56,808 nucleotides of DNA from Planotetraspora mira (lineage in GTDB: Bacteria; Actinomycetota; Actinomycetes; Streptosporangiales; Streptosporangiaceae): NCBI RefSeq assembly GCF_016863275.1, contig NZ_BOOO01000052.1:1-56808 (forward strand), written 5' to 3'. Shown here one piece after another: positions 1,534-37,034 of the stretch. The position numbers were made by a program, and so were the translations under genes. The first letter of the stretch is position 1; every line of letters begins with the position of its first letter. The notes beneath the pieces are model-generated. The model was not told where the DNA came from and did no database searches. It saw only the letters and a program-made list of their open reading frames with translations.

Positions 1534-2277
1534 ATGCTGGGGTTGCCTGACGGAGTCCGCGGCTGCCTGTTCGACATGGACGGAGTGCTGACCCGGACGG
1601 CCACCGTCCACGCGGCCGCCTGGAAGCGGGCGTTCGACGAATTCCTCCGGACGTGGGCCGACCGGACGGGGACGCCCTTCACGCCGTTCGACGAGGTGGC
1701 CGATTACGACAGCTACGTCGACGGCAAGAAGCGACTCGACGGCACCAGGTCGTTCCTGGCCTCCAGAGGGATCGACCTCCCCGAGGGCGACCCCGGCGAC
1801 CCGCCGGACGCCCTGACGGTCAACGGCGTCAGCAACCACAAGAACGCACTCGTGCAGAGCGTCCTCGATGAGAAGGGCGTCGAGGTCTTCGAGGGATCGG
1901 TGCGCTACGTCCGCGCGGTCCGCGAGGCCGGGCTGAAGACGGCGGTCGTCTCGTCGAGCGCCAACACCGCCCGAGTCCTGGCCGCCGCCGGCATCGCCGA
2001 CCTGTTCGAGGCGCGGATCGACGGCGCCGTCGCCCAGACACGAGATCTCGCCGGCAAACCCGCACCGGACATGTACGTCGCGGGAGCACAGGCTCTCGGC
2101 TTGAAGCCCTCGGAGGCGGCCGTCTTCGAGGACGCCCTCGCCGGAGTGGAGGCGGGCAGGGCCGGCCGGTTCGCCCTGGTCGTCGGCGTCGACCGGGCCG
2201 GACAGGCCGGCGCGTTGCGCGAACACGGTGCGGACACCGTCGTCACCGACCTCGCCGACCTCCTGGAGGGTCGATGA
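1534..2277 (+). CDS. Beta-phosphoglucomutase family HAD hydrolase
   Basis: A 247-aa HAD-superfamily protein that probably converts beta-glucose 1-phosphate to glucose 6-phosphate in the cytoplasm. Motif I is FDMDGV with nucleophile D14 and general acid/base D16. Motif II is around VVSSSANT, the motif III lysine is in GKPAPDMY, and motif IV is FEDALAG. The VNGVSNHKN stretch in the cap domain fits beta-PGM. The start at 1534 follows AGGAGG by 4 nt; an upstream in-frame ATG at 1513 would place that ribosome-binding site inside the coding sequence. It overlaps the GH65 gene by ATGA, indicating translational coupling. GH65 phosphorylases release beta-glucose 1-phosphate, the substrate of this enzyme. 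Confidence 0.9.
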   Translation: MLGLPDGVRGCLFDMDGVLTRTATVHAAAWKRAFDEFLRTWADRTGTPFTPFDEVADYDSYVDGKKRLDGTRSFLASRGIDLPEGDPGDPPDALTVNGVSNHKNALVQSVLDEKGVEVFEGSVRYVRAVREAGLKTAVVSSSANTARVLAAAGIADLFEARIDGAVAQTRDLAGKPAPDMYVAGAQALGLKPSEAAVFEDALAGVEAGRAGRFALVVGVDRAGQAGALREHGADTVVTDLADLLEGR

Positions 2278-4640
2278 TCCAGCATCCCGCCTTCACCGTG
2301 GAGCCGTGGTGGATCCGCGAGTGCCGTCTGCACCTCGACGTGCTGCCGCAGACCGAGTCGGTGTTCGCGCTGTCCAACGGGCACATCGGCCTGCGCGGCA
2401 ACCTCGACGAGGGCGAGCCGCACGGCCTGCCGGGCACCTACCTCAACTCCGTCTACGAGTTGCGGCCCCTGCCGTACGCCGAGGCCGGCTACGGCTACCC
2501 CGAGTCCGGGCAGACCGTGGTCAACGTCACCAACGGCAAGCTCATCCGGCTGCTCGTCGACGACGAGCCCTTCGACGTCCGGTACGGCACGCTGCACGAG
2601 CACGAGCGGGTGCTCGACCTCCGGGCGGGCACCCTCACCCGCACGGTCCACTGGACCTCTCCGGCGGGGGCCGAGGTCCGCATCAGGTCCATCCGGCTGG
2701 TGTCGTTCACCCACCGGGCGGTCGCCGCCGTCCACTACGAGGTCGAGGCCGTCGGGCAACCGCTGGGCGTGGTCGTCCAGTCCGAACTGGTGGCCAACGA
2801 GACCCTGCCCGGGATGGGCCGCGACCCGCGTGCCGCCGCCGCGCTCGAGGCGCCGCTGGTCCTGGAGGAGAACGCCTCCGGTACGTCCGGTGTGGCGGTC
2901 ATGGTCCACTGCACCCGGGCCAGCAATCTGCGCGTGGCCGCCGCGATGCGGCACCAGATCGACGGCCCCACCGGGACGCGGGCCGAGGCCGACGGCGCCG
3001 ACGACGTGAGCCGCCTGACGGTGGCGACCCAGCTCAAGCCTGGAGAGCGGCTGCGCCTGATCAAGCTGTTCGCCTATGGCTGGTCGGCTCAGCGTTCCCG
3101 CCCCGCCCTGCACGACCAGGTGGTCGCCGCCCTGGCCGCCGCCCGCCTCACCGGGTGGGACGGCCTGCTCGCCAAGCAGCGGAAGTATCTCGACGAGTTC
3201 TGGGCCGGTGCCGACGTGGAGGTCGAGGGCGACGCGGAGATACAGCAGGCCGTCCGCTTCGGGCTCTTCCACCTGCTCCAGGCGGGGGCGCGGCTGGAGC
3301 GGCGGCCGATACCGGGGAAGGGCCTCACGGGGTCCGGCTACGACGGGCACGCGTTCTGGGACACCGAGAGTTTCGTTCTGCCGGTGCTCACCTACACGCA
3401 CCCCCGGTCGGCCGCGGACGCGTTGCAGTGGCGGGAGTCGATCCTGCCGCAGGCCGAGGAGCGCGCCGACCAACTGGGACTGCACGGAGCCGCGTTCCCC
3501 TGGCGGACCATCAACGGCGAGGAATGCTCGGGATACTGGCCGGCCGGCACCGCGGCGTTCCACGTCAACGCCGACATCGCCGACGCGGCCGTCCGGTACG
3601 TCGACGCCACCGAGGACATGGAGTTCGAGCGCGAGACCGGCATGCCGCTGCTCGTCGCCACCGCCCGGCTGTGGTGCAGCCTCGGCCACCACGACATCGA
3701 GGGCCACTACCGCATCGACGGCGTCACCGGCCCCGACGAGTACAGCGCGGTGGCCGACAACAACGTCTACACGAACCTCATGGCGCAGATGAACCTGCGC
3801 GCCGCCGCCGACGCGGCCGTCCGCCACGGCGACCGCGCCCAGGAACTCGGGGTCGGCCTGGAGGAGATCGCGATCTGGCGGGACGCCGCGTCCGCGATGT
3901 TCATCCCGTACGACACGCGGCTCGGCGTCCATCCCCAGAGCGAGGGGTTCACCCGGCACGCGGTCTGGGACTTCGAGGCGACCAAACCCGAGCAGTACCC
4001 GTTGTTGCTGAACTTCCCGTACTTCGACCTCTACCGGAAACAGGTGGTCAAGCAGGCCGACCTCGTGCTCGCGCTCCATTTGCGGGGCGACGCGTTCACA
4101 CCCGAGGAGAAGGCCCGCGACTTCGCGTTCTACGAGCGCCTGACGGTCCGGGACTCGTCGTTGTCCGCGTGCACACAGGCCGTGCTCGCCGCCGAGGTCG
4201 GGCAACTTGAGCTCGCCTACGACTACCTCGGGGAGGCCGCGCTCATGGACCTCCACGACCTGGAGAAGAACACCAGGGACGGCGTCCACATGGCCTCACT
4301 CGCCGGGGCGTGGACGGCACTCGTGGCGGGCTTCGGCGGCATGCGCGCGGGCTCGGGCCGGATGCACTTCTCCCCGAGGCTGCCCGACGGCATCACCCGG
4401 CTCGCCTTCCGGATGCGTTACCGGGGCCGTCTGCTGCGGATCGACGTCACCGCGACCACGACGACCTACACGTTGGTGCACGGGCACTCGCTCACGCTGT
4501 CGCACCACGGTGAGGAGTTCTCCCTCGGCCGTGAGCCGGTCACGCGCACGACGCCCATCACCCCGGTCCCGGAGCAGAGGCTCCGCCAGCCGCCCGGCCG
4601 CGAACCACCCCCCCGCCACCCCGGCCCCACTTCCGCGTGA
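2274..4640 (+). CDS. Glycoside hydrolase family 65 disaccharide phosphorylase
   Basis: A 788-aa cytoplasmic enzyme of the maltose/trehalose/kojibiose/nigerose phosphorylase family: a glucobiose plus phosphate gives beta-glucose 1-phosphate plus glucose. The general acid is E489 in the motif GPDEY (about residues 486-490), close to the position known for maltose phosphorylase. The phosphate-site motif KQADLVLALH is also present. Length is typical of the family. The last ~30 residues are a Pro/Arg/Thr-rich tail beyond the usual barrel and beta-sandwich. The start overlaps the stop of the beta-phosphoglucomutase gene (ATGA). The stop codon lies inside the first unit of a 53-bp repeat array. Which disaccharide is used cannot be read from sequence alone. 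Confidence 0.9.
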   Translation: MIQHPAFTVEPWWIRECRLHLDVLPQTESVFALSNGHIGLRGNLDEGEPHGLPGTYLNSVYELRPLPYAEAGYGYPESGQTVVNVTNGKLIRLLVDDEPFDVRYGTLHEHERVLDLRAGTLTRTVHWTSPAGAEVRIRSIRLVSFTHRAVAAVHYEVEAVGQPLGVVVQSELVANETLPGMGRDPRAAAALEAPLVLEENASGTSGVAVMVHCTRASNLRVAAAMRHQIDGPTGTRAEADGADDVSRLTVATQLKPGERLRLIKLFAYGWSAQRSRPALHDQVVAALAAARLTGWDGLLAKQRKYLDEFWAGADVEVEGDAEIQQAVRFGLFHLLQAGARLERRPIPGKGLTGSGYDGHAFWDTESFVLPVLTYTHPRSAADALQWRESILPQAEERADQLGLHGAAFPWRTINGEECSGYWPAGTAAFHVNADIADAAVRYVDATEDMEFERETGMPLLVATARLWCSLGHHDIEGHYRIDGVTGPDEYSAVADNNVYTNLMAQMNLRAAADAAVRHGDRAQELGVGLEEIAIWRDAASAMFIPYDTRLGVHPQSEGFTRHAVWDFEATKPEQYPLLLNFPYFDLYRKQVVKQADLVLALHLRGDAFTPEEKARDFAFYERLTVRDSSLSACTQAVLAAEVGQLELAYDYLGEAALMDLHDLEKNTRDGVHMASLAGAWTALVAGFGGMRAGSGRMHFSPRLPDGITRLAFRMRYRGRLLRIDVTATTTTYTLVHGHSLTLSHHGEEFSLGREPVTRTTPITPVPEQRLRQPPGREPPPRHPGPTSA

Positions 4641-4753
4641 TCATGCACAAGTTCGTGATCACGCCGTACGACCTGCACAGACCCTGGCCGTGATCATGCA
4701 CAGGTTCGGCGCCACGCCGTACGACCTGCGAGAAGACCGAGCGTGATCATGCG
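4636..4753 (+). repeat. 53-bp phased repeat array A (3 units)
   Basis: Cores reading CGTGATCATGCA start at 4636 and 4689, and CGTGATCATGCG at 4742, exactly 53 bp apart. The first two units also share CGCCGTACGACCTGC at the same offset; the third unit decays after its core. The array lies between the convergent GH65 and SDR genes, and the GH65 TGA stop (4638-4640) is within the first core. The same unit occurs in arrays at 12358-12723 and 23570-23781. Confidence 0.9.
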
Positions 4754-4813
4754 CGGGGGCCGCGACCGGCGCCTGGACCCGCCCGGCGCCGGCCCCGGCA
4801 TCGAGGACATGTC

Positions 4814-11097: not shown

Positions 11098-12384
11098 CTA
11101 CTGGGGTTCCCGTACGGGCACCGGGACTTCGGCCCGCGCTGCGGGGAGCCGTACATAGAGGAGGGTCGCGGACAGTGCGATCACCGCGGTCACGGCCCAG
11201 ACCCCACCCGCCCCCACCTGCGCCGAGAACGGAATCAGCACGAGCGACGAGAGCATCCCGCCGAACTGCAACTGGAGCGAGTCGACCGACATCACGGTCG
11301 CCCGTTGGGTCGAGACGATCCGCTGATGGATGAGCTCGTTCCTGAACAGCGAGCTGACGGCCAGACCGGTGAACAGCACGACATATGCGGCTCCGGCGGC
11401 GACCATCCCCGCCGCGCCGTCCAGCGCCACGGACGCCGCGAGAGCGCCCACGGACGCCGCCGTGAAGACGGTGGCCAGCATGACGGCCCGCATCGATCCC
11501 CCGACGGCCCTGGCGACCGCCGGAGCGATGGCACTGCCGACGGCGTTCGCCGCGAACCCGGCGGCGGCCACGATGGCGTAGATCGTGCCGGCCGTCTCGG
11601 GGCGGCCGGTGAGCGCGGCCAGGCGCCCGGGCGTCAGCAGTTCGATGGAGTTGAGCATCACGCCCGCGGCCACGGCGACGAGCAGCAGCCGCCCGAGGCC
11701 CCGGTCGCGTACGGCGAGCCGGAAACCTCCCCCGACGGTCACCGGCACGTCGCGTAAGACGTCGGCCAGGCGCGGCCGTACCGGCCTGGCCGGCTCCCGC
11801 ATCACGAGGAGGGCCGTGAACAGCAGGATCAGGGCGGCGCCTCCGCCCGCCCATGCGGGCACGGCGAGCGACTCGCCGCTGACCAGCAGCGGAAGCACGC
11901 CGCCGGTCAGTGTCCCGATGGCGAGGGCGACGGAACCGGCGGCTCCGCCCGCCGCGAGACCGGGCTTGAGGTCGGCCGCCGGGCCTTCCATCGCGTGGAG
12001 CCTGTCGACGTACCAGGCCTGGGCCGGGCCACTGGACAACGCCCGCGCGACGCCCTTGAGCAGCGAGGCGATCAGGAACATCCAGACCGAACCCGCCAGC
12101 GCCGTCATGGTGAACCCCGCCACGCTGAAGACGGCCGAGGCGGCGAGGACGTTCCGCCGGCCGATGACGTCCGCCAGCCCGCCCGTGGGGAGTTCCAGGA
12201 CGACGACGGTGACCGAGTAGGCGGCGGTTACCAGGCCGATCTGTGCGACGTCGAGCCCACGCACCGACATCAGCAGGACCATCGGCGCGATCATCAGCCC
12301 CGTCGGCAGCCAGGTGAGGAACTCCACCAGCGCATACCGCCCCCGCATCCCCTCGGGCGTGATCATGCTCACCTTCTTGATCAT
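11098..12384 (-). CDS. MFS transporter
   Basis: A 428-aa integral membrane protein with about 12 hydrophobic segments and a loop-2/3 motif near GGLADVIGRRN. It is of the drug/metabolite efflux type; the substrate is unknown. The start is ambiguous: ATG 12384 (AGGTG 7 nt upstream), ATG 12366, or ATG 12348 (MRGRYALVEF, where resemblance to other transporters begins). The first 36 nt of the longest form, together with its ribosome-binding site, overlap a 53-bp repeat unit (12358-12410), so the N-terminal dozen residues may be derived from the repeat. Lies upstream of the MBL hydrolase gene. Confidence 0.88.
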   Translation of the reverse strand: MIKKVSMITPEGMRGRYALVEFLTWLPTGLMIAPMVLLMSVRGLDVAQIGLVTAAYSVTVVVLELPTGGLADVIGRRNVLAASAVFSVAGFTMTALAGSVWMFLIASLLKGVARALSSGPAQAWYVDRLHAMEGPAADLKPGLAAGGAAGSVALAIGTLTGGVLPLLVSGESLAVPAWAGGGAALILLFTALLVMREPARPVRPRLADVLRDVPVTVGGGFRLAVRDRGLGRLLLVAVAAGVMLNSIELLTPGRLAALTGRPETAGTIYAIVAAAGFAANAVGSAIAPAVARAVGGSMRAVMLATVFTAASVGALAASVALDGAAGMVAAGAAYVVLFTGLAVSSLFRNELIHQRIVSTQRATVMSVDSLQLQFGGMLSSLVLIPFSAQVGAGGVWAVTAVIALSATLLYVRLPAARAEVPVPVREPQ

Positions 12385-12723
12385 GGCCTCTCACCTGCCA
12401 CGACTCCCGCCGTGATCATGCACACATTCGGCGATGTCCCGGCTGAGCAGCGGCTTCATGTTTCGTGATCATGCACACCTTCGGCGGCACGACCCCTGGT
12501 CTGCGGTTTCTTAGTTTGTGATCATGCACTTAGGCCGGGCGCCGGACCGGATTGCATGATCACGAAAGATGTCGGCGCAGGTCACGCGTGGTTTGGCCGA
12601 ATGTGCGCATGATCACGTACGGCTTTCGCCCAGCTCACAGCACGTCCCGCCGAGCCTGTGCATGATCGCGCGCGGTCGAGGGCCAGCTCAGCGCCCCCAT
12701 TCACGAACCTGTGCATGATCACG
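12358..12723. repeat. 53-bp phased repeat array B, two opposed blocks of four units
   Basis: Plus-oriented cores (CGTGATCATGCA or close variants) begin at 12358, 12411, 12464 and 12517. Minus-oriented cores (TGCATGATCACG or variants) end at 12564, 12617, 12670 and 12723. Every step within each half is exactly 53 bp; the centre is a 48-bp inverted pair with 11-bp perfect arms. Reverse units also share a GCGCAGGTC-like box at positions 11-19 and CGAA at 34-37. This accounts for the whole 354-bp gap between the MFS start and the ArsR-like stop; I see no gene in it. Confidence 0.93.
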
Positions 12724-12738
12724 GGGAAAGGAGGCCGG

Positions 12739-13299
12739 TCAGGGGCGGGGGTGGGCGGCGAGGAAGACCGCCACGGGACGGGCGTCAGGAGCGTCCTTGT
12801 CCCGATCCGCCGCCTCCCGGAGCATGGCCCACATCCGCTCGGACAGCGAGGCCACCGACGCCGGCGACAGCCGTACGACGTCGTCGGACATCCCGGCGAC
12901 CTCGATCCACTCCTTGCCCCAGGAGTCCCGATCCCGCTCGAACGCCTCCGCGGCGTCCGTCAGCACTTCGACCTGGCGGCGGCGCAAGAAGGCCGACGCC
13001 TCACTGCCCTCGGGGGTCGCCGCCATCTCGGCGTTGCTCCACGACGTCATCCGGTGGACGGCCCGCCATCGCCGCTCGCGGCGATCTCGCTGCTCCGTGT
13101 CCTCCTCGACGAAGCCGTACCGGGCGAGTTGCCTCAAGTGATAGCTCGTCGATCCCGAGCTCTCCCCGAACCGGGCCCCCAACTCGGTGGCCGTCGCGGG
13201 CCCGTAGAACCGCAGCGCTCCCAGCAGGCGCGTCCGGAGGGGATGAGCCACCGCCTTGAGCGTCCGCGGATCACTCACATGGAAGATCTCATCGCTCAT
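12739..13299 (-). CDS. ArsR-like helix-turn-helix transcriptional regulator
   Basis: A 186-aa regulator with an N-terminal winged helix (KAVAHPLRTRLLGALRFYGP, then TELGARFGESSGSTSYHLRQL as the recognition region, residues about 10-65). The C-terminal ~110 residues are acidic and helical. No metal-binding cysteine motif is present, so it is of the non-metal DUF/HTH_20 type. It is divergent from the B3/B4-domain gene, and a perfect inverted repeat lies 26 bp upstream of its start, so it probably represses both genes. The ligand is unknown. Confidence 0.85.
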   Translation of the reverse strand: MSDEIFHVSDPRTLKAVAHPLRTRLLGALRFYGPATATELGARFGESSGSTSYHLRQLARYGFVEEDTEQRDRRERRWRAVHRMTSWSNAEMAATPEGSEASAFLRRRQVEVLTDAAEAFERDRDSWGKEWIEVAGMSDDVVRLSPASVASLSERMWAMLREAADRDKDAPDARPVAVFLAAHPRP

Positions 13300-21250: not shown

Positions 21251-21958
21251 TCAGATGTCGAAGATGGTGCCGGTGGCCGAGTGCATCTCACAGGCGTTGC
21301 CGAAGGTGTGCTTGAAGTCGACGTAGCGACCGTCCCAGATCCCGTTGGCGGTCACCGTGACCGGGCTGAACATCATGGGGCAGAAGGTGTTCTGGCTCGG
21401 CTTGAGCTGGGTCAGGTCGCCCTTCACCCCGTTCACGACGACGCACGCCTCATCCCGCTCGCGCAGGCCCCCGGACGTCGCCGGGCAGTTCAGGACCGCG
21501 TAGCGCTCCGGCCTGGACGTCTCCCCGGCGGCGTAGGTAAGGATCAGCGCCCGCGTGCGGGTCGCGATGGGACGGATCTTCGTGACCCGATTGGTCACAG
21601 CCGACGGAGCGGCCGCCGCTACGCCCGGAACCGCCTGAGTCGCGGGAGTGCCCGGAGGCGCCGGAGCAACCCCCGGGACCGCCTGAGCGCCCGAAGCGCC
21701 CGGAGCCGCGGCAGCCACGCCCGGAGCAGCGTGCGCGGTGTGAGCACCCGATGCCGCTGAAACCCCCTGAGCAGCCGGCGCGACCGGAGCCGCAGCAGCC
21801 ACGCCCGGAGCAGCCTGATCGGCCGGATTGACCTTGGCGACCGGAGTGGTCGCCGTCACGCCGGCCGGTTGCGGCGGTGGCGGCAACGTTCCGGCGAAGG
21901 CGGCCGTGGGGCCCGCGGCGATGGCCGTACCGGCCAGCAGAACAAGAAGTGGCTTCAT
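21251..21958 (-). CDS. Secreted subtilisin inhibitor-like (SSI family) protein with repetitive linker
   Basis: A 235-aa secreted protein. A signal peptide (MKPLLVLLAGTAIAAG to AFA, about 1-22) is followed by a ~95-residue Ala/Pro/Gly/Val linker with recurring PGVAAAAP-like units. The C-terminal domain (about 125-235) matches SSI-type protease inhibitors: LILTYAAGE strand, cysteines C158/C172 and C193/C223 with SSI-like spacing, and the reactive loop C193-P-M195|M196. P1 is therefore Met, as in the classical inhibitor. Family members block extracellular subtilisins and transglutaminase-activating proteases. Typical SSI proteins are ~110 aa mature, so the long linker is unusual and might tether or space the domain at the cell wall. 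Confidence 0.85.
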   Translation of the reverse strand: MKPLLVLLAGTAIAAGPTAAFAGTLPPPPQPAGVTATTPVAKVNPADQAAPGVAAAAPVAPAAQGVSAASGAHTAHAAPGVAAAAPGASGAQAVPGVAPAPPGTPATQAVPGVAAAAPSAVTNRVTKIRPIATRTRALILTYAAGETSRPERYAVLNCPATSGGLRERDEACVVVNGVKGDLTQLKPSQNTFCPMMFSPVTVTANGIWDGRYVDFKHTFGNACEMHSATGTIFDI

Positions 21959-22113: not shown

Positions 22114-23466
22114 TCACACGGGGACGCCGTTGCGGCCGAGCAGGTCCGCCACTTGCGGCTCTCCGGCGTACGGCTCGAGTCGCTTGCGTAAGTCGTCGAC
22201 GTACGACCTGGTCCGTACGGACTGGAGACTCCTGGCGAGGTCGAACGCGGAGCCGGCCGCCATGCACGCCTCCTCCAGGTCGCCCTGCTGCACCAGCGCG
22301 GACGCCAGGAGCGAAAGGTTGAACATCCGGCCCCGCACGAACCGGCCGTCCATCCGCAGCGACCGCCGCGCATGCCGTACGGCCGCCGCCCCGTCACCGA
22401 GGTCGCGCAGGCAGTGGGCCGACTTGGCCGCGAGATAGGCCTCGTCGAAGTAGGCGATCCATCGGGGCTCGTCCTGCGGCGAGCGCCGGTCGAAGGCCTT
22501 GTCCGCCTCGTGCAGCGAGGCGGCGCACGACGGGCCGTCGCCGAGTTGGGCGAACGCGTGCGCCTCCTGCACGTGGGCCTCGGCCAGCAGGGAGAAGATC
22601 CCCGACCGGGTGGCCGCCATCGTGGCCGCCCGCGCGAGGTCGAGGCCGTGACGGGGCTGCCCGATGTAGAGGGCCTGGTGGCTCATGCCCGCGAGTATCT
22701 CCCCGCCGAGACCGTGGTCGCCCGCGCCGCGGGCCAGCCCGAGCGCCTGGATCAGATAACGCTGGGCCAGGCCGTGCTGCTCGAGGTCGTAGGCCATCCA
22801 GCCGGCGAGCCGGGTGAGCTCGGCCGCCGCGGTGGCGAGCGCGCGTCCGGTGGCCTCGCCGTACGAGCCGTTCTGCAGGAGAGGCGCGACCGCCGTATCG
22901 AGATATTTCACGACCGGTCCGCGAATGCTGCCGCCGCCGAACCGGTTGTCCAGCTCACTGAACGAACGCGTGACCTCATGGATCGCGGTCACGTCGGAGA
23001 CGCCCACCCTGCGCGGGCCGTTCGCGGAGAGTCGGTCCTGCGCCGGGACCGTCAGCCAGCGGGCGATCCCGGCGGAGCCCGCTCCCAGAGCGAAGGTGGA
23101 ATCGAGCAGGAACCTGCGCCGCTCGACATCGGCCTTCCACAGTGCTGTCACGCCTGCCACGCCCTCCTCCCACGAATGGGGGAACTCCTGTCCGAGATCG
23201 AGAGGGACTGCTCCGCGTGGCATGCCGATGTCCTCCATGGACACCGGCCTCCCGAGCCGCAGCGAAAAGATCTCCGCCAGCAGGCCGGGAACCGGATCGC
23301 GTGGGCGCTGGCCACCCGCCCAGCGCAGCACCGAACCATGGTCATATCTCATCCCGGTCAGCCCGCGGGCGGAGCCGAGATCGTTCAGCCGGCTCGCCAG
23401 CCCCTTGCGGGACAGGCCCGCTTCGGCCAGGTGCTGCTGGAGCAGCCGGTTGGGTTCGCGTCGCAT
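22114..23466 (-). CDS. XRE-like transcriptional regulator with TPR-type repeats
   Basis: A 450-aa protein of a class abundant in Streptosporangiales and Streptomyces. The N-terminal ~85 residues (RLLQQHLAEAGLSRKGLASR through GSVLRWAGGQRPRDPVPGLL) form a divergent helix-turn-helix. The remaining ~340 residues are alpha-helical with TPR-like pairs (GEILAGMSHQALYIGQPRHG, AQLGDGPSCAASLHEADKAF, CLRDLGDGAAAVRHARRSLR). A peptide-sensing or developmental role is common for such architecture but not shown here. ATG 23466 has GAGGAG 4 nt upstream; a GTG at 23478 overlaps that site. Starts next to repeat array C. Confidence 0.75.
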   Translation of the reverse strand: MRREPNRLLQQHLAEAGLSRKGLASRLNDLGSARGLTGMRYDHGSVLRWAGGQRPRDPVPGLLAEIFSLRLGRPVSMEDIGMPRGAVPLDLGQEFPHSWEEGVAGVTALWKADVERRRFLLDSTFALGAGSAGIARWLTVPAQDRLSANGPRRVGVSDVTAIHEVTRSFSELDNRFGGGSIRGPVVKYLDTAVAPLLQNGSYGEATGRALATAAAELTRLAGWMAYDLEQHGLAQRYLIQALGLARGAGDHGLGGEILAGMSHQALYIGQPRHGLDLARAATMAATRSGIFSLLAEAHVQEAHAFAQLGDGPSCAASLHEADKAFDRRSPQDEPRWIAYFDEAYLAAKSAHCLRDLGDGAAAVRHARRSLRMDGRFVRGRMFNLSLLASALVQQGDLEEACMAAGSAFDLARSLQSVRTRSYVDDLRKRLEPYAGEPQVADLLGRNGVPV

Positions 23467-23569: not shown

Positions 23570-23781
23570 TCCAGACGAAAAGCCCCGAGTCGGGATCGCG
23601 CATACGGAGATGCATGATCGCGACTCGAGGCTTCGCAGGTCAGGCCACATGCACACGAATCCGTGCATGATCACGAACGGGGTCTCCGCAGGTCACATGT
23701 CATACACCCGAAGGTGTGCATGATCACGCCGAGAAGGTGCGCAGGTCGTACGGCACATGCACGAAGGTGTGCATGATCACG
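23570..23781 (-). repeat. 53-bp phased repeat array C (4 units)
   Basis: Cores TGCATGATCACG (first one TGCATGATCGCG) end at 23622, 23675, 23728 and 23781, all exactly 53 bp apart in one orientation. Units 2-4 share CGCAGGTC at positions 12-19; the last unit has GTACGGC after it and is close to the units of array A. Both this array and array B end in CACGGGGAAA before the neighbouring minus-strand stop. The array, with ~100 bp of unremarkable DNA (23467-23569), fills the gap between the XRE-like start and the malic enzyme stop. Confidence 0.92.
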
Positions 23782-23800: not shown

Positions 23801-24985
23801 CTATTTGCGGGCTACGCCGTCCAGACGGGCTTGGGCGGCGACCGCGGCGGTCACGGCGGGAGCGACCCGGGCGTCGAACGGGGAGGGGATGACGTACTCC
23901 TCAGAGACGGCGTCCCCGACCACGTCGGCGAGGGCGGTCGCGGCCGCCACCTTCATGTTCTCCGTGATCGTCCTGGCCCGCACGTCGAGCGCGCCGCGGA
24001 AGACGCCGGGGAAGGCGAGCACGTTGTTGATCTGGTTGGGGAAGTCCGATCGGCCGGTGGCCACGACCCTGGCGTGACGGGCCGCCACCGACGGCTCGAT
24101 CTCGGGCGTCGGGTTGGACAGCGCGAAGACGATCGCGTCCGGCGCCATCGCCGCCACGGCGGCCTCGGAGACCGTCGAGCCGGACAGGCCGATGAACACG
24201 TCGGCTCCCGCGAGAGCCTGCTCGGTCGAGCCGGTCAGGCCCAGCCTGTTGGTCTCACGGGCCAGCGCCTCCTTGACGGAGTGCAGGCTCTCGCGCCCGG
24301 AGTGCACGATGCCCTTGGAGTCGGAGACCGCGATGTCGCCGATGCCGGCGTTGAGCAGGATCCGGGTCACGGCGACGCCCGAGGCGCCGGCGCCCGCCAC
24401 GACGGCCCGGAGATCGCCGAGCGACCGCCCGGTGAGGCGGGCCGCGTTCCGCAGGGCGGCCAGGACGACGATCGCGGTGCCGTGCTGGTCGTCGTGGAAG
24501 ACGGGGACGTCGAGCGCCTCGCGAAGCCGGTCCTCCACCTCGAAGCACCGCGGTGCGCTGATGTCCTCGAGGTTGATGCCGCCGAACGACGGCGCGAGCC
24601 TGGTCACGGTCTCGACCAGGGCGTCGACGTCGGTGCAGTCGAGGCAGATCGGGACGGCGTCGACGCCCGCGAACTGCTTGAACAGCAGCGCCTTGCCCTC
24701 CATGACGGGCATGGCGGCCGAGGGCCCGATGTCGCCCAGGCCGAGGACGGCGGTGCCGTCCGAGACCACGGCGACGACGTTGGAGACCCAGGTGTAGTCG
24801 TTGACCAGTTCGGGGTTGTCGGCGATGGCCGAGCAGACGCGGGCGACACCCGGCGTGTAGGCGAGCGACAGGTCGTCCGCGTCACGGACCGGAACGGTGG
24901 AGCGGACCTCCAGCTTGCCCCCGCGATGGAGCGCGAAGGCCGGATCCAGATCCAGCGATGTCAAGGAATCAGGTGAGACGGTCAC
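23801..24985 (-). CDS. NAD(P)-dependent malic enzyme
   Basis: A 394-aa short-form malic enzyme converting malate to pyruvate and CO2 with reduction of NAD(P). Visible are LAYTPGVARVC (the Tyr-containing malic signature), the catalytic Lys-bearing region before LFKQFAGVDAVPICLDC, FHDDQHGTA metal-site region and the Rossmann loop VVAGAGASGVAV. The GTG start at 24985 gives MTVSPDSLTSLDL, a normal N-terminus; upstream in-frame starts to 25270 would add ~95 Arg-rich residues not expected in the family. Sits alone next to repeat array C. Confidence 0.92.
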   Translation of the reverse strand: MTVSPDSLTSLDLDPAFALHRGGKLEVRSTVPVRDADDLSLAYTPGVARVCSAIADNPELVNDYTWVSNVVAVVSDGTAVLGLGDIGPSAAMPVMEGKALLFKQFAGVDAVPICLDCTDVDALVETVTRLAPSFGGINLEDISAPRCFEVEDRLREALDVPVFHDDQHGTAIVVLAALRNAARLTGRSLGDLRAVVAGAGASGVAVTRILLNAGIGDIAVSDSKGIVHSGRESLHSVKEALARETNRLGLTGSTEQALAGADVFIGLSGSTVSEAAVAAMAPDAIVFALSNPTPEIEPSVAARHARVVATGRSDFPNQINNVLAFPGVFRGALDVRARTITENMKVAAATALADVVGDAVSEEYVIPSPFDARVAPAVTAAVAAQARLDGVARK

Positions 24986-35387: not shown

Positions 35388-37034
35388 ATGGAGTCCCCCA
35401 AGCACGCAGGCGACATCGCGGTCGCCGTTTCACAGGCCTACGGCGTCGAGACCATGTTCACGCTGTCCGGCGGCCATGTCTTCCCCCTCTACGACGGGGC
35501 CGTGCACGAAGACATGCGCATTCTCGACGTCCGCCATGAGCAGAGTGCGGTCTTCGCCGCCGAGGCGACCGCGCGCCTGACGAGAAAGCCGGGCCTGGCG
35601 GTGCTCACCGCCGGCCCGGGCATCACCAACGGCGTCTCCGGGATAGCCACGGCCCACTTCAACGGGTCGCCCGTGGTCGTGCTCGGGGGCCGGGCTCCGC
35701 GATCCCGGTGGGGATCGGGAGCGCTGCAGGAGATGGACCATCCGCCGCTGCTGGAACCCATCACCAAGCTCGCCTTCACCGGGTCGGGTGCGGACTCCAT
35801 CGGGCAGGACGTCGAGATGGCCTTCCGCACGGCCGTCGCCCCCCACCGCGGGCCGGTCTTCCTGGACTTCCACATGGACGACCTTTTCTCCCCCTCGGCC
35901 GAGCACGCCACCGAGACGCTGAGCCCGTCGCCGCTCGAACCGGACGAGGAGGCCCTCGCCCAGATCGCACGGCTGATCGCCGAGGCCGAGCGCCCGGTGC
36001 TCGTGCTGGGCTCGGACGTGTGGATGGAACGGGCGGAGGAGGCCGCGCGCGACTTCGCCGAGGAGTTCCGCCTCCCCGTCATCCCGAACGGCCAGGGCCG
36101 CGGCATCCTCCCGGCCGGCCACGAGTTGCTCGTCACGCGGGCACGCGGAACCGCCTTCGGGCAGGCGGACCTCGTGATCGCCGTCGGCACCCCGCTCGAC
36201 TTCCGCCTCGGCTACGGCTGGTTCGGCGGCAAGAACGGTGCTCCGCTCGCCAAGGTCGTCCACATCGGCGACGCGCCCTCCCAGATCGCCACGCACACCG
36301 GCCTGTCCGGGTCGGCGGCGGGCGACCTGTCGGTGCTCTTCTGGAGCCTCTCCAAGGCGTGCGGGACGGCGAGTGTGAACCCCAGGGCCTACGCCCCCTG
36401 GCTGGCCAAGCTGGCCGAGACGGCCACGGCCGCGATCGCGGCGGACCTCCCCTTGCTGGAGTCGGACTCCGACCCGATCCACCCCATGCGCATCTACGGC
36501 GAACTCGGCCGACTCCTGGCCGACGATGCCGTGGTGATCGGCGACGGCGGCGACTTCGTGTCCTACGCGGGCAAGTACGTCGAGCCCCGCAAGCCCGGCA
36601 ACTGGCTCGACCCGGGTCCGTACGGCTGCCTCGGGACCGGGCTCGGGTACTCCATCGCGGCCCGCGTCGCGCGGCCCTCCTCACAGGTCGTCCTGCTCCT
36701 CGGGGACGGCGCGGCCGGGTTCTCGCTCATGGACGTCGACACGCTGGTACGGCACAAGCTGCCCGTCGTCATGATCTGCGGCAACAACGGCATGTGGGGC
36801 CTGGAGAAGCACCCCATGCAGATGTTGTACGGCTATGACGTGGCGGCCGAGCTTCAGCCCCAGACCCGGTACGACCAGGTGGTCACCGCCCTCGGCGGCG
36901 CCGGCGAACTGGTGACGTCCCCGGCGGAGATCGCGCCCGCGCTGCAGCGTGCGTTCGACTCCGGCGTGCCGTACCTGGTGAACATCGCCACCGACCCGGA
37001 GGTCGCCTATCCCCGGAACACCACCGGGGTGTGA
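35388..37034 (+). CDS. ThDP-dependent enzyme, IlvG-like acetolactate-synthase family
   Basis: A 548-aa three-domain ThDP enzyme. Residue E51 (RHEQSA) is the cofactor-activating Glu; the FAD/Rossmann-like middle domain spans ~190-330; the C-terminal ThDP motif is GDGAAGF through ICGNN. It resembles mycobacterial IlvG (Rv1820) along its length, including TLSGGHVFPLYDGA, AVLTAGPGITNG and NNGMWGLEKHPMQ. True acetolactate synthase activity is not certain for this subgroup. TAGGTT lies 6 nt before the ATG without a ribosome-binding site, suggesting a leaderless mRNA. Sits 88 nt after bioB but looks independently transcribed. Confidence 0.88.
   Translation: MESPKHAGDIAVAVSQAYGVETMFTLSGGHVFPLYDGAVHEDMRILDVRHEQSAVFAAEATARLTRKPGLAVLTAGPGITNGVSGIATAHFNGSPVVVLGGRAPRSRWGSGALQEMDHPPLLEPITKLAFTGSGADSIGQDVEMAFRTAVAPHRGPVFLDFHMDDLFSPSAEHATETLSPSPLEPDEEALAQIARLIAEAERPVLVLGSDVWMERAEEAARDFAEEFRLPVIPNGQGRGILPAGHELLVTRARGTAFGQADLVIAVGTPLDFRLGYGWFGGKNGAPLAKVVHIGDAPSQIATHTGLSGSAAGDLSVLFWSLSKACGTASVNPRAYAPWLAKLAETATAAIAADLPLLESDSDPIHPMRIYGELGRLLADDAVVIGDGGDFVSYAGKYVEPRKPGNWLDPGPYGCLGTGLGYSIAARVARPSSQVVLLLGDGAAGFSLMDVDTLVRHKLPVVMICGNNGMWGLEKHPMQMLYGYDVAAELQPQTRYDQVVTALGGAGELVTSPAEIAPALQRAFDSGVPYLVNIATDPEVAYPRNTTGV

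Follow-up and report, generated by a model that had tools for sequence, protein, structure and literature searches.

In a stretch of 56,808 nucleotides from Planotetraspora mira (the 'window'), eight short cores lying between two genes are set out in two opposed rows of striking regularity, and the locus raises the question of what such an array might be: a set of protein-binding sites, a mobile repeat, an organiser of the chromosome, or a structure that acts once it has been transcribed. The initial annotation described eight TGATCA cores, with every step within each row exactly 53 bp and a single flip of orientation at the center, and this architecture was confirmed. The left half (12359..12529, + strand) carries cores at 12359, 12412, 12465 and 12518, and the right half (12552..12722, - strand) carries cores at 12552, 12605, 12658 and 12711; the outer six units are complete, and the innermost unit of each half retains its core and scores below the profile cut-off. 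On the right, a gene for a helix-turn-helix regulator (HTH_20; ArsR-like; 12739..13299, - strand) ends 16 bp from the array, and a leader that is pyrimidine-rich as read on the - strand (12723..12738) runs from its stop codon to the first core of the - half. On the left, the predicted 5' end of an MFS transporter gene (11098..12384, - strand) overlaps the outermost + unit.

The window holds three such arrays in total, and TGATCA occurs 33 times within it, against 7.5 (sd 3.2) in shuffled sequence. The two further arrays are one-sided. Profile matches place one of them, with three units (the third weak), at 4637..4754 on the + strand, where the TGA of the first core is itself the stop codon of a glycosyl hydrolase 65 gene (2274-4640). 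The other (23610..23780, - strand) consists of three units found by the profile (23663-23780) and a degenerate unit at 23610 recognized by eye, and it begins 20 bp beyond the stop of a malic enzyme gene (23801-24964, - strand). Additional copies of TGATCA are found 18 bp past the core in some units (window 4656 and 12378), hinting at a weak third box at about +18 to +25. A predicted 450-residue protein (22114-23466, - strand) with no Pfam match at E 0.001 adjoins the third array, and a short tandem repeat of period 48 (2.5 copies) lies at 21605-21725.

These arrays belong to a large population. The 12-mer GTGATCATGCAC is present in 623 copies in the 9.03-Mb genome and in none when read backwards, and pairs of the core GTGATCWTGC at exactly 53 bp number 622 genome-wide. 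A profile built from array sequences gave 141 matches in 857 kb of the same genome (contigs C1 1-360000, C2 1-320000 and C4 1-120000, plus the window), a sample that is richer in cores than the average (it makes up 9.5% of the genome and contains 109 of the 623 exact 12-mers), and 0 in the reversed sequence. The matches listed included no exact 12-mer between contigs C2 and C4 (that is, on contig C3), so array density may be uneven. A public scan for the exact 53-bp pair returned at least 97 loci, and all 80 of the 80 matches listed are from Planotetraspora, in agreement with the initial annotation's guess of a Streptosporangiales lineage. Together, 27 arrays from the sampled contigs and 105 arrays from named loci gave a pooled set of 132 arrays with two or more units, of which 121 have called genes on both sides; the genes were called with a home-made caller based on codon usage, which will have misassigned some gaps and contexts.

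The 141 profile matches define a unit with the consensus CGTGATCATGCACAGnTTCGGnGAnAnGCCCnCTGACCTGC, followed by a freer stretch up to the next unit. Each unit comprises two boxes, GTGATCATGCACAGnTTCGG and CYGACCTGC (the latter in the core's reading direction, appearing as GCAGGTC on the opposite strand), with weaker base preferences at +22/+24, +43/44 and +50/51 and a remainder that is nearly randomized. The 27 arrays in the 857 kb carry one to six diverged units per half, and the halves of two-sided arrays face inward: among profile matches, no + unit comes after a - unit at a distance of 800 bp or less in the sampled contigs, or inside any of the 132 pooled arrays, and locus L063 has a degenerate - unit, below the cut-off, ahead of its + row. 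The two halves are often joined in phase, with 20 of 67 pooled joins at 22-24 modulo 53 (P 5e-10) and the remainder scattered; in the sampled contigs four of 14 joins fall on the 53-bp lattice, all four of them at 129 bp.

It had been proposed that spacing is conserved better than sequence, and that other copies in the genome would keep it; both proposals held. In the 857-kb sample, where the profile located units without any spacing rule, neighbouring units on the same strand are 53 bp apart in 97 of 98 steps (the remaining step is 52), while units that belong to different arrays are only 0.354 identical in their variable parts. The corresponding pooled count, 332 of 348 steps, is biased, because 97 of the loci behind it were picked for having an exact pair at 53 bp. 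Identity in the variable parts rises to 0.404 between units of the same half and between opposite halves in register (0.369 off register), and in some arrays the opposite halves are nearly identical there, a pattern that would be explained by a few recent local copies among units that have otherwise drifted. Other intergenic DNA accumulates 0.09-0.16 gaps per substitution, and since the spacing is held despite nearly randomized variable parts, free drift at such a rate should have broken it. One comparison counts against a constraint on spacing: between species, the ratio of gaps to substitutions in aligned array stretches is no lower than that of intergenic DNA elsewhere (0.158 and 0.104, respectively, in G002; 0.171 and 0.093 in G003; 0.179 and 0.162 in G001), in counts that include whole-unit changes and the array center.

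The internal statistics of the unit point to recognition as DNA. Among 530 distinct pooled units, the eleven strongest dependencies all involve adjacent positions, as expected of DNA-shape preferences and not of an RNA stem; no strong distant covariation was found (maximum 0.053 bits for positions more than two apart), and comparison of the variable parts gave no maintained pairing between array halves, so that recognition of DNA rather than RNA is favoured. A 10.6-bp A/T periodicity was the strongest of 13 periods tested within the unit, at a level that was not significant (P 0.11).

Where the arrays lie relative to genes is equally distinctive. Arrays are enriched in convergent gaps, which hold 48 of 121 arrays and make up 43 of the 336 own-genome gaps that measure 100 bp or longer, a background in which the gaps with arrays are counted too (P 2e-9); they are depleted in divergent gaps, which hold 13 of 121 arrays and make up 108 of the same 336 (P 2e-6). 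When an outer edge faces the 3' end of a gene, it lies between -4 and 35 bp from the stop codon in 91 of 122 cases, and the TGA of the core is the stop codon itself in 30; edges that face a 5' end are equally near in only nine of 61. The leader between stop and first core is C-rich and G-poor. An initial count of polarity (41/59) was inflated by convergent contexts, where it is true by construction, and only tandem contexts were therefore used: there, of 29 two-sided arrays, 21 lie flush against the 3' end and seven against the 5' end, and among one-sided arrays flush placement is seen in 14 of the 19 that point with transcription and in none of the 12 that point against it (P 9e-5), while polarity alone of the one-sided tandem arrays was not significant (19/31, P 0.28).

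Gene ends that carry arrays are also poor in hairpins. The hairpin excess is -0.62 kcal/mol at 105 array-bearing ends and -3.39 at 379 others (P 6e-5), a difference that persists against 238 ends matched for C-G (P 3e-5) and in the own-genome subset (25 against 232 ends, P 0.017), although the C-rich leader may contribute in part. The arrays were accordingly rejected as intrinsic terminators with a stable hairpin directly after the stop. Downstream of 63 one-sided arrays the excess is intermediate (-1.22), so displaced terminators are possible in part of these. Rho was found in eight of eight genomes tested; the arrays thus do not replace Rho, and its loss was discarded as an explanation. A second, shorter Rho-like protein of 409 residues is encoded in addition to the main Rho (L278:5923-7152, G000:C59), and a weaker second Rho_RNA_bind match was seen in five of six array-bearing genomes (all save G276) and in neither of two array-poor ones; in this very small sample, the second Rho-like protein is a possible partner of the arrays.

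Comparison with three congeners indicated that arrays are both retained and remodelled. The three window arrays, or their remnants, are found at the same places in all three, with unit number varying by whole units. Little of the first of them is left in G002, only G001 of the four genomes compared has an array after kgd, G003 has an array at 36441 with no counterpart in the window, and locus L099 has three sites where the aligned part of P. mira (G000) has no arrays. At L063:2757-2926 (P. silvatica), most units are inverted relative to G000 C2:7577-7800, within surroundings that are 96% identical. Divergence at aligned array positions is roughly double that of intergenic DNA elsewhere (0.161, 0.172 and 0.271 against 0.086, 0.090 and 0.147). 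In G001 the core is GTGATCATGCAGAAGTTCG, both in the aligned arrays and in a 26-unit consensus of that contig, and the genome contains 766 GTGATCAT pairs and only 165 exact copies of GTGATCATGCAC, counts that fit a change of core across many loci.

Related arrays extend beyond the genus. Some GTGATCAT pair is found in 97 of 341 genomes of the family, and it is frequent in five of five genomes of the genus g1 (160-766) and in G062 of g59 (566), the next-highest counts being 24 in G054, 14 in G165 and seven in G160. A CTTGYAG core is instead frequent in g34 (183 and 66), in four of 15 genomes of g65 (164, 51, 44 and 41) and in G054 of g51 (44). Within g65, the genomes with arrays include G165, G160, G156 and G162, and G161, G167 and G168 have 0-1 copies of the core. 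Related arrays, some with altered cores, are thus present in four further genera, and the proposed constancy of spacing carries over to them: in loci chosen by motif matches, with duplicates removed, the step is 53 bp in 76 of 113 cases in g59 (52 in 21), in 33 of 38 in g34 and in 38 of 56 in g65 (54 in 12), so that four genera are mostly at 53 bp despite partly different cores, and a fifth, g51, is at 41 bp (19 of 23), with its second box reversed as judged by eye. Among the arrays of other genera, nine lie at the 3' end of a gene that has an ortholog among 1367 sampled Planotetraspora genes, and for five of these nine the Planotetraspora gene carries an array at the corresponding end (P 0.001; base rate 146/1367, 11 records before overlapping loci were merged), the misses being L190, L214, L187 and L189. 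For this core and spacing, no pair was found in 395 genomes of the phylum outside the family. In genera g48 and g50 (L204, L205, L206 and L207; G134, G135 and G051), short hairpins that occur singly and contain the core CGTGATCTTGCAG lie downstream of stop codons; they may be a simple precursor of the arrays or a remnant of them. The Neisseriaceae DNA uptake sequences, which form inverted pairs at terminators and whose core of about 12 bp reportedly exists in genus 'dialects', offer a parallel in the variation of the core by genus and in inverted pairing at gene ends; unlike those scattered single 12-mers, the arrays are composed of regularly spaced, two-box units, and we know of no link between them and competence.

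What, then, are the arrays? The interpretation proposed at the outset is partly supported. Its reading as an array of protein sites stands in the sense that sites on one face of the helix provide the best account of the data; its wider suggestion, a role in the nucleoid or the organization of the chromosome, is no more than a possible rival, since the placement just past stops and the weakness of the hairpins there favour the ends of transcription units first. Stacking of a DNA-binding protein along one face would fit the two-box unit, the need for spacing, the gain and loss of whole units and the location at gene ends. Each 53-bp unit would be one binding site for a putative, sequence-specific, double-stranded DNA-binding protein, its two boxes about three helical turns apart; with a period of five turns (four in one genus), bound molecules would align on one face and could touch, and the two inward-facing rows, often joined on a common lattice, would form a single nucleoprotein block. 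Lying in most cases just downstream of a stop, at gene ends where hairpins are weak, such a block would most likely stop or slow RNA polymerase and so mark the ends of transcription units, from both sides when genes converge. This reading, a roadblock or boundary formed on helically phased sites, is favoured tentatively, at close to an even chance; the 13 arrays between divergent genes and the 31 of 122 edges that are not flush count against it. A bolder version, in which a family-specific protein polymerizes on phased arrays after stops in place of hairpin terminators and in which protein and sites have repeatedly changed recognition together, is possible and distinctly more doubtful.

The strongest competitor, itself unlikely, holds that the arrays are short interspersed repeats akin to REP/BIME elements or MITEs, selfish or domesticated and moved by a putative transposase, gene ends being simply a safe location for them. 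High copy number, avoidance of divergent promoters, the gains and losses between species (the kgd array in G001, the array of G003 and the three sites of L099), the near-identical variable parts of some opposite halves and the genus-specific cores are all as it would predict. REP/BIME elements are high-copy intergenic repeats of regular spacing, alternating orientation and species-specific sequence, which bind proteins and have proposed roles in termination and chromosome organization (PMC2817692, PMC3733652, PMC12306157). The arrays share those features of copy number, placement, spacing, orientation and sequence, including a position near gene ends, but differ in their 53- or 41-bp steps, their inward-facing halves and a unit that is directional and, to judge from its lack of strong distant covariation, is not the 20-40 bp palindromic hairpin of REP. 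Moreover, the Y1_Tnp domain of RAYT proteins (PF01797) is absent from ten of 14 array-bearing genomes, P. mira included (G000, G002, G003, G004, G062, G165, G160, G054, G134 and G051), and membership in RAYT-associated REP was rejected on these two grounds; the domain is present in G001, G276, G037 and G135 and in six of 11 array-poor genomes.

Of the features expected of a MITE, inverted ends and orthologous array-free sites were seen, and no clean target-site duplication was legible by eye in the alignments. The two candidates for a parent transposon flanked on either side by arrays (L052 and L035) carry ordinary-looking genes, by eye, and among 1,333 blastn matches between the 27 arrays the 40 longest are only 71-77% identical. 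The window array gave no match in plasmid or phage collections, and no pair of this core and spacing was found in viral contigs, and on these collections a phage or plasmid origin was rejected; nor was a known mobile element found, remnants of which the initial annotation had named as a refuting alternative. Tn7/CAST transposon ends have several repeated TnsB sites at each inverted end, much as the arrays have several sites per inverted side; the arrays differ in that neither cargo nor transposase was seen, the copies are numerous and diverged, and the sites stand 53 bp apart. Different genera also share gene ends, and placement at stop codons is flush and directional; from shared loci, flush placement and strict spacing it can be argued that the arrays are kept for function. 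The appearance and disappearance of arrays and the copying from half to half do fit a mobile-repeat origin, and arrays may form in this way.

Several further classes were considered and set aside. A CRISPR-like array does not accord with 27 arrays in 857 kb, diverged units, inverted halves and a 'spacer' with a partly conserved box. The window has no Rfam match at gathering score. An arginine-repressor site was set aside: one S. coelicolor ARG-box row contains the core 12-mer, as a single site (PMC5839063). Among the literature matches listed, no description of a 53-bp array element was found.

Quite unlikely, too, is the view that the arrays organize the chromosome, seeding a nucleoid-associated protein or the borders of topological domains in the manner of gyrase-binding BIME-2; convergent ends would then be favoured as places where positive supercoils accumulate. 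Inward two-sided arrays, enrichment between convergent genes and a constant, near-integral helical spacing are consistent with it, but one-sided arrays follow single tandem genes, and the results obtained provide no link to gyrase or to a known nucleoid protein. That the arrays are transcribed and act as RNA, folding or being processed as 3' UTR structures, is very improbable: they adjoin stop codons, and in the related genera g48/g50 one short hairpin with a similar core lies downstream of stops, but the 530 units lack strong distant covariation, halves in register agree in only 0.40 of their variable positions, gene 3' ends bearing arrays have less structure than other ends, an RNA has no need of exact 53- or 41-bp steps, and a long hairpin is impossible for one-sided arrays.

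If the arrays are indeed phased protein sites at the ends of transcription units, they would represent a bacterial roadblock or insulator built like a ruler, in which selection keeps spacing more than sequence. The shift of cores between genera, combined with the persistence of some loci, would then offer a clear-cut way to identify the cognate protein, and the co-evolution of a DNA-binding protein with hundreds of its sites would become testable. Actinobacterial engineering would also gain compact barriers that are tunable by phase.
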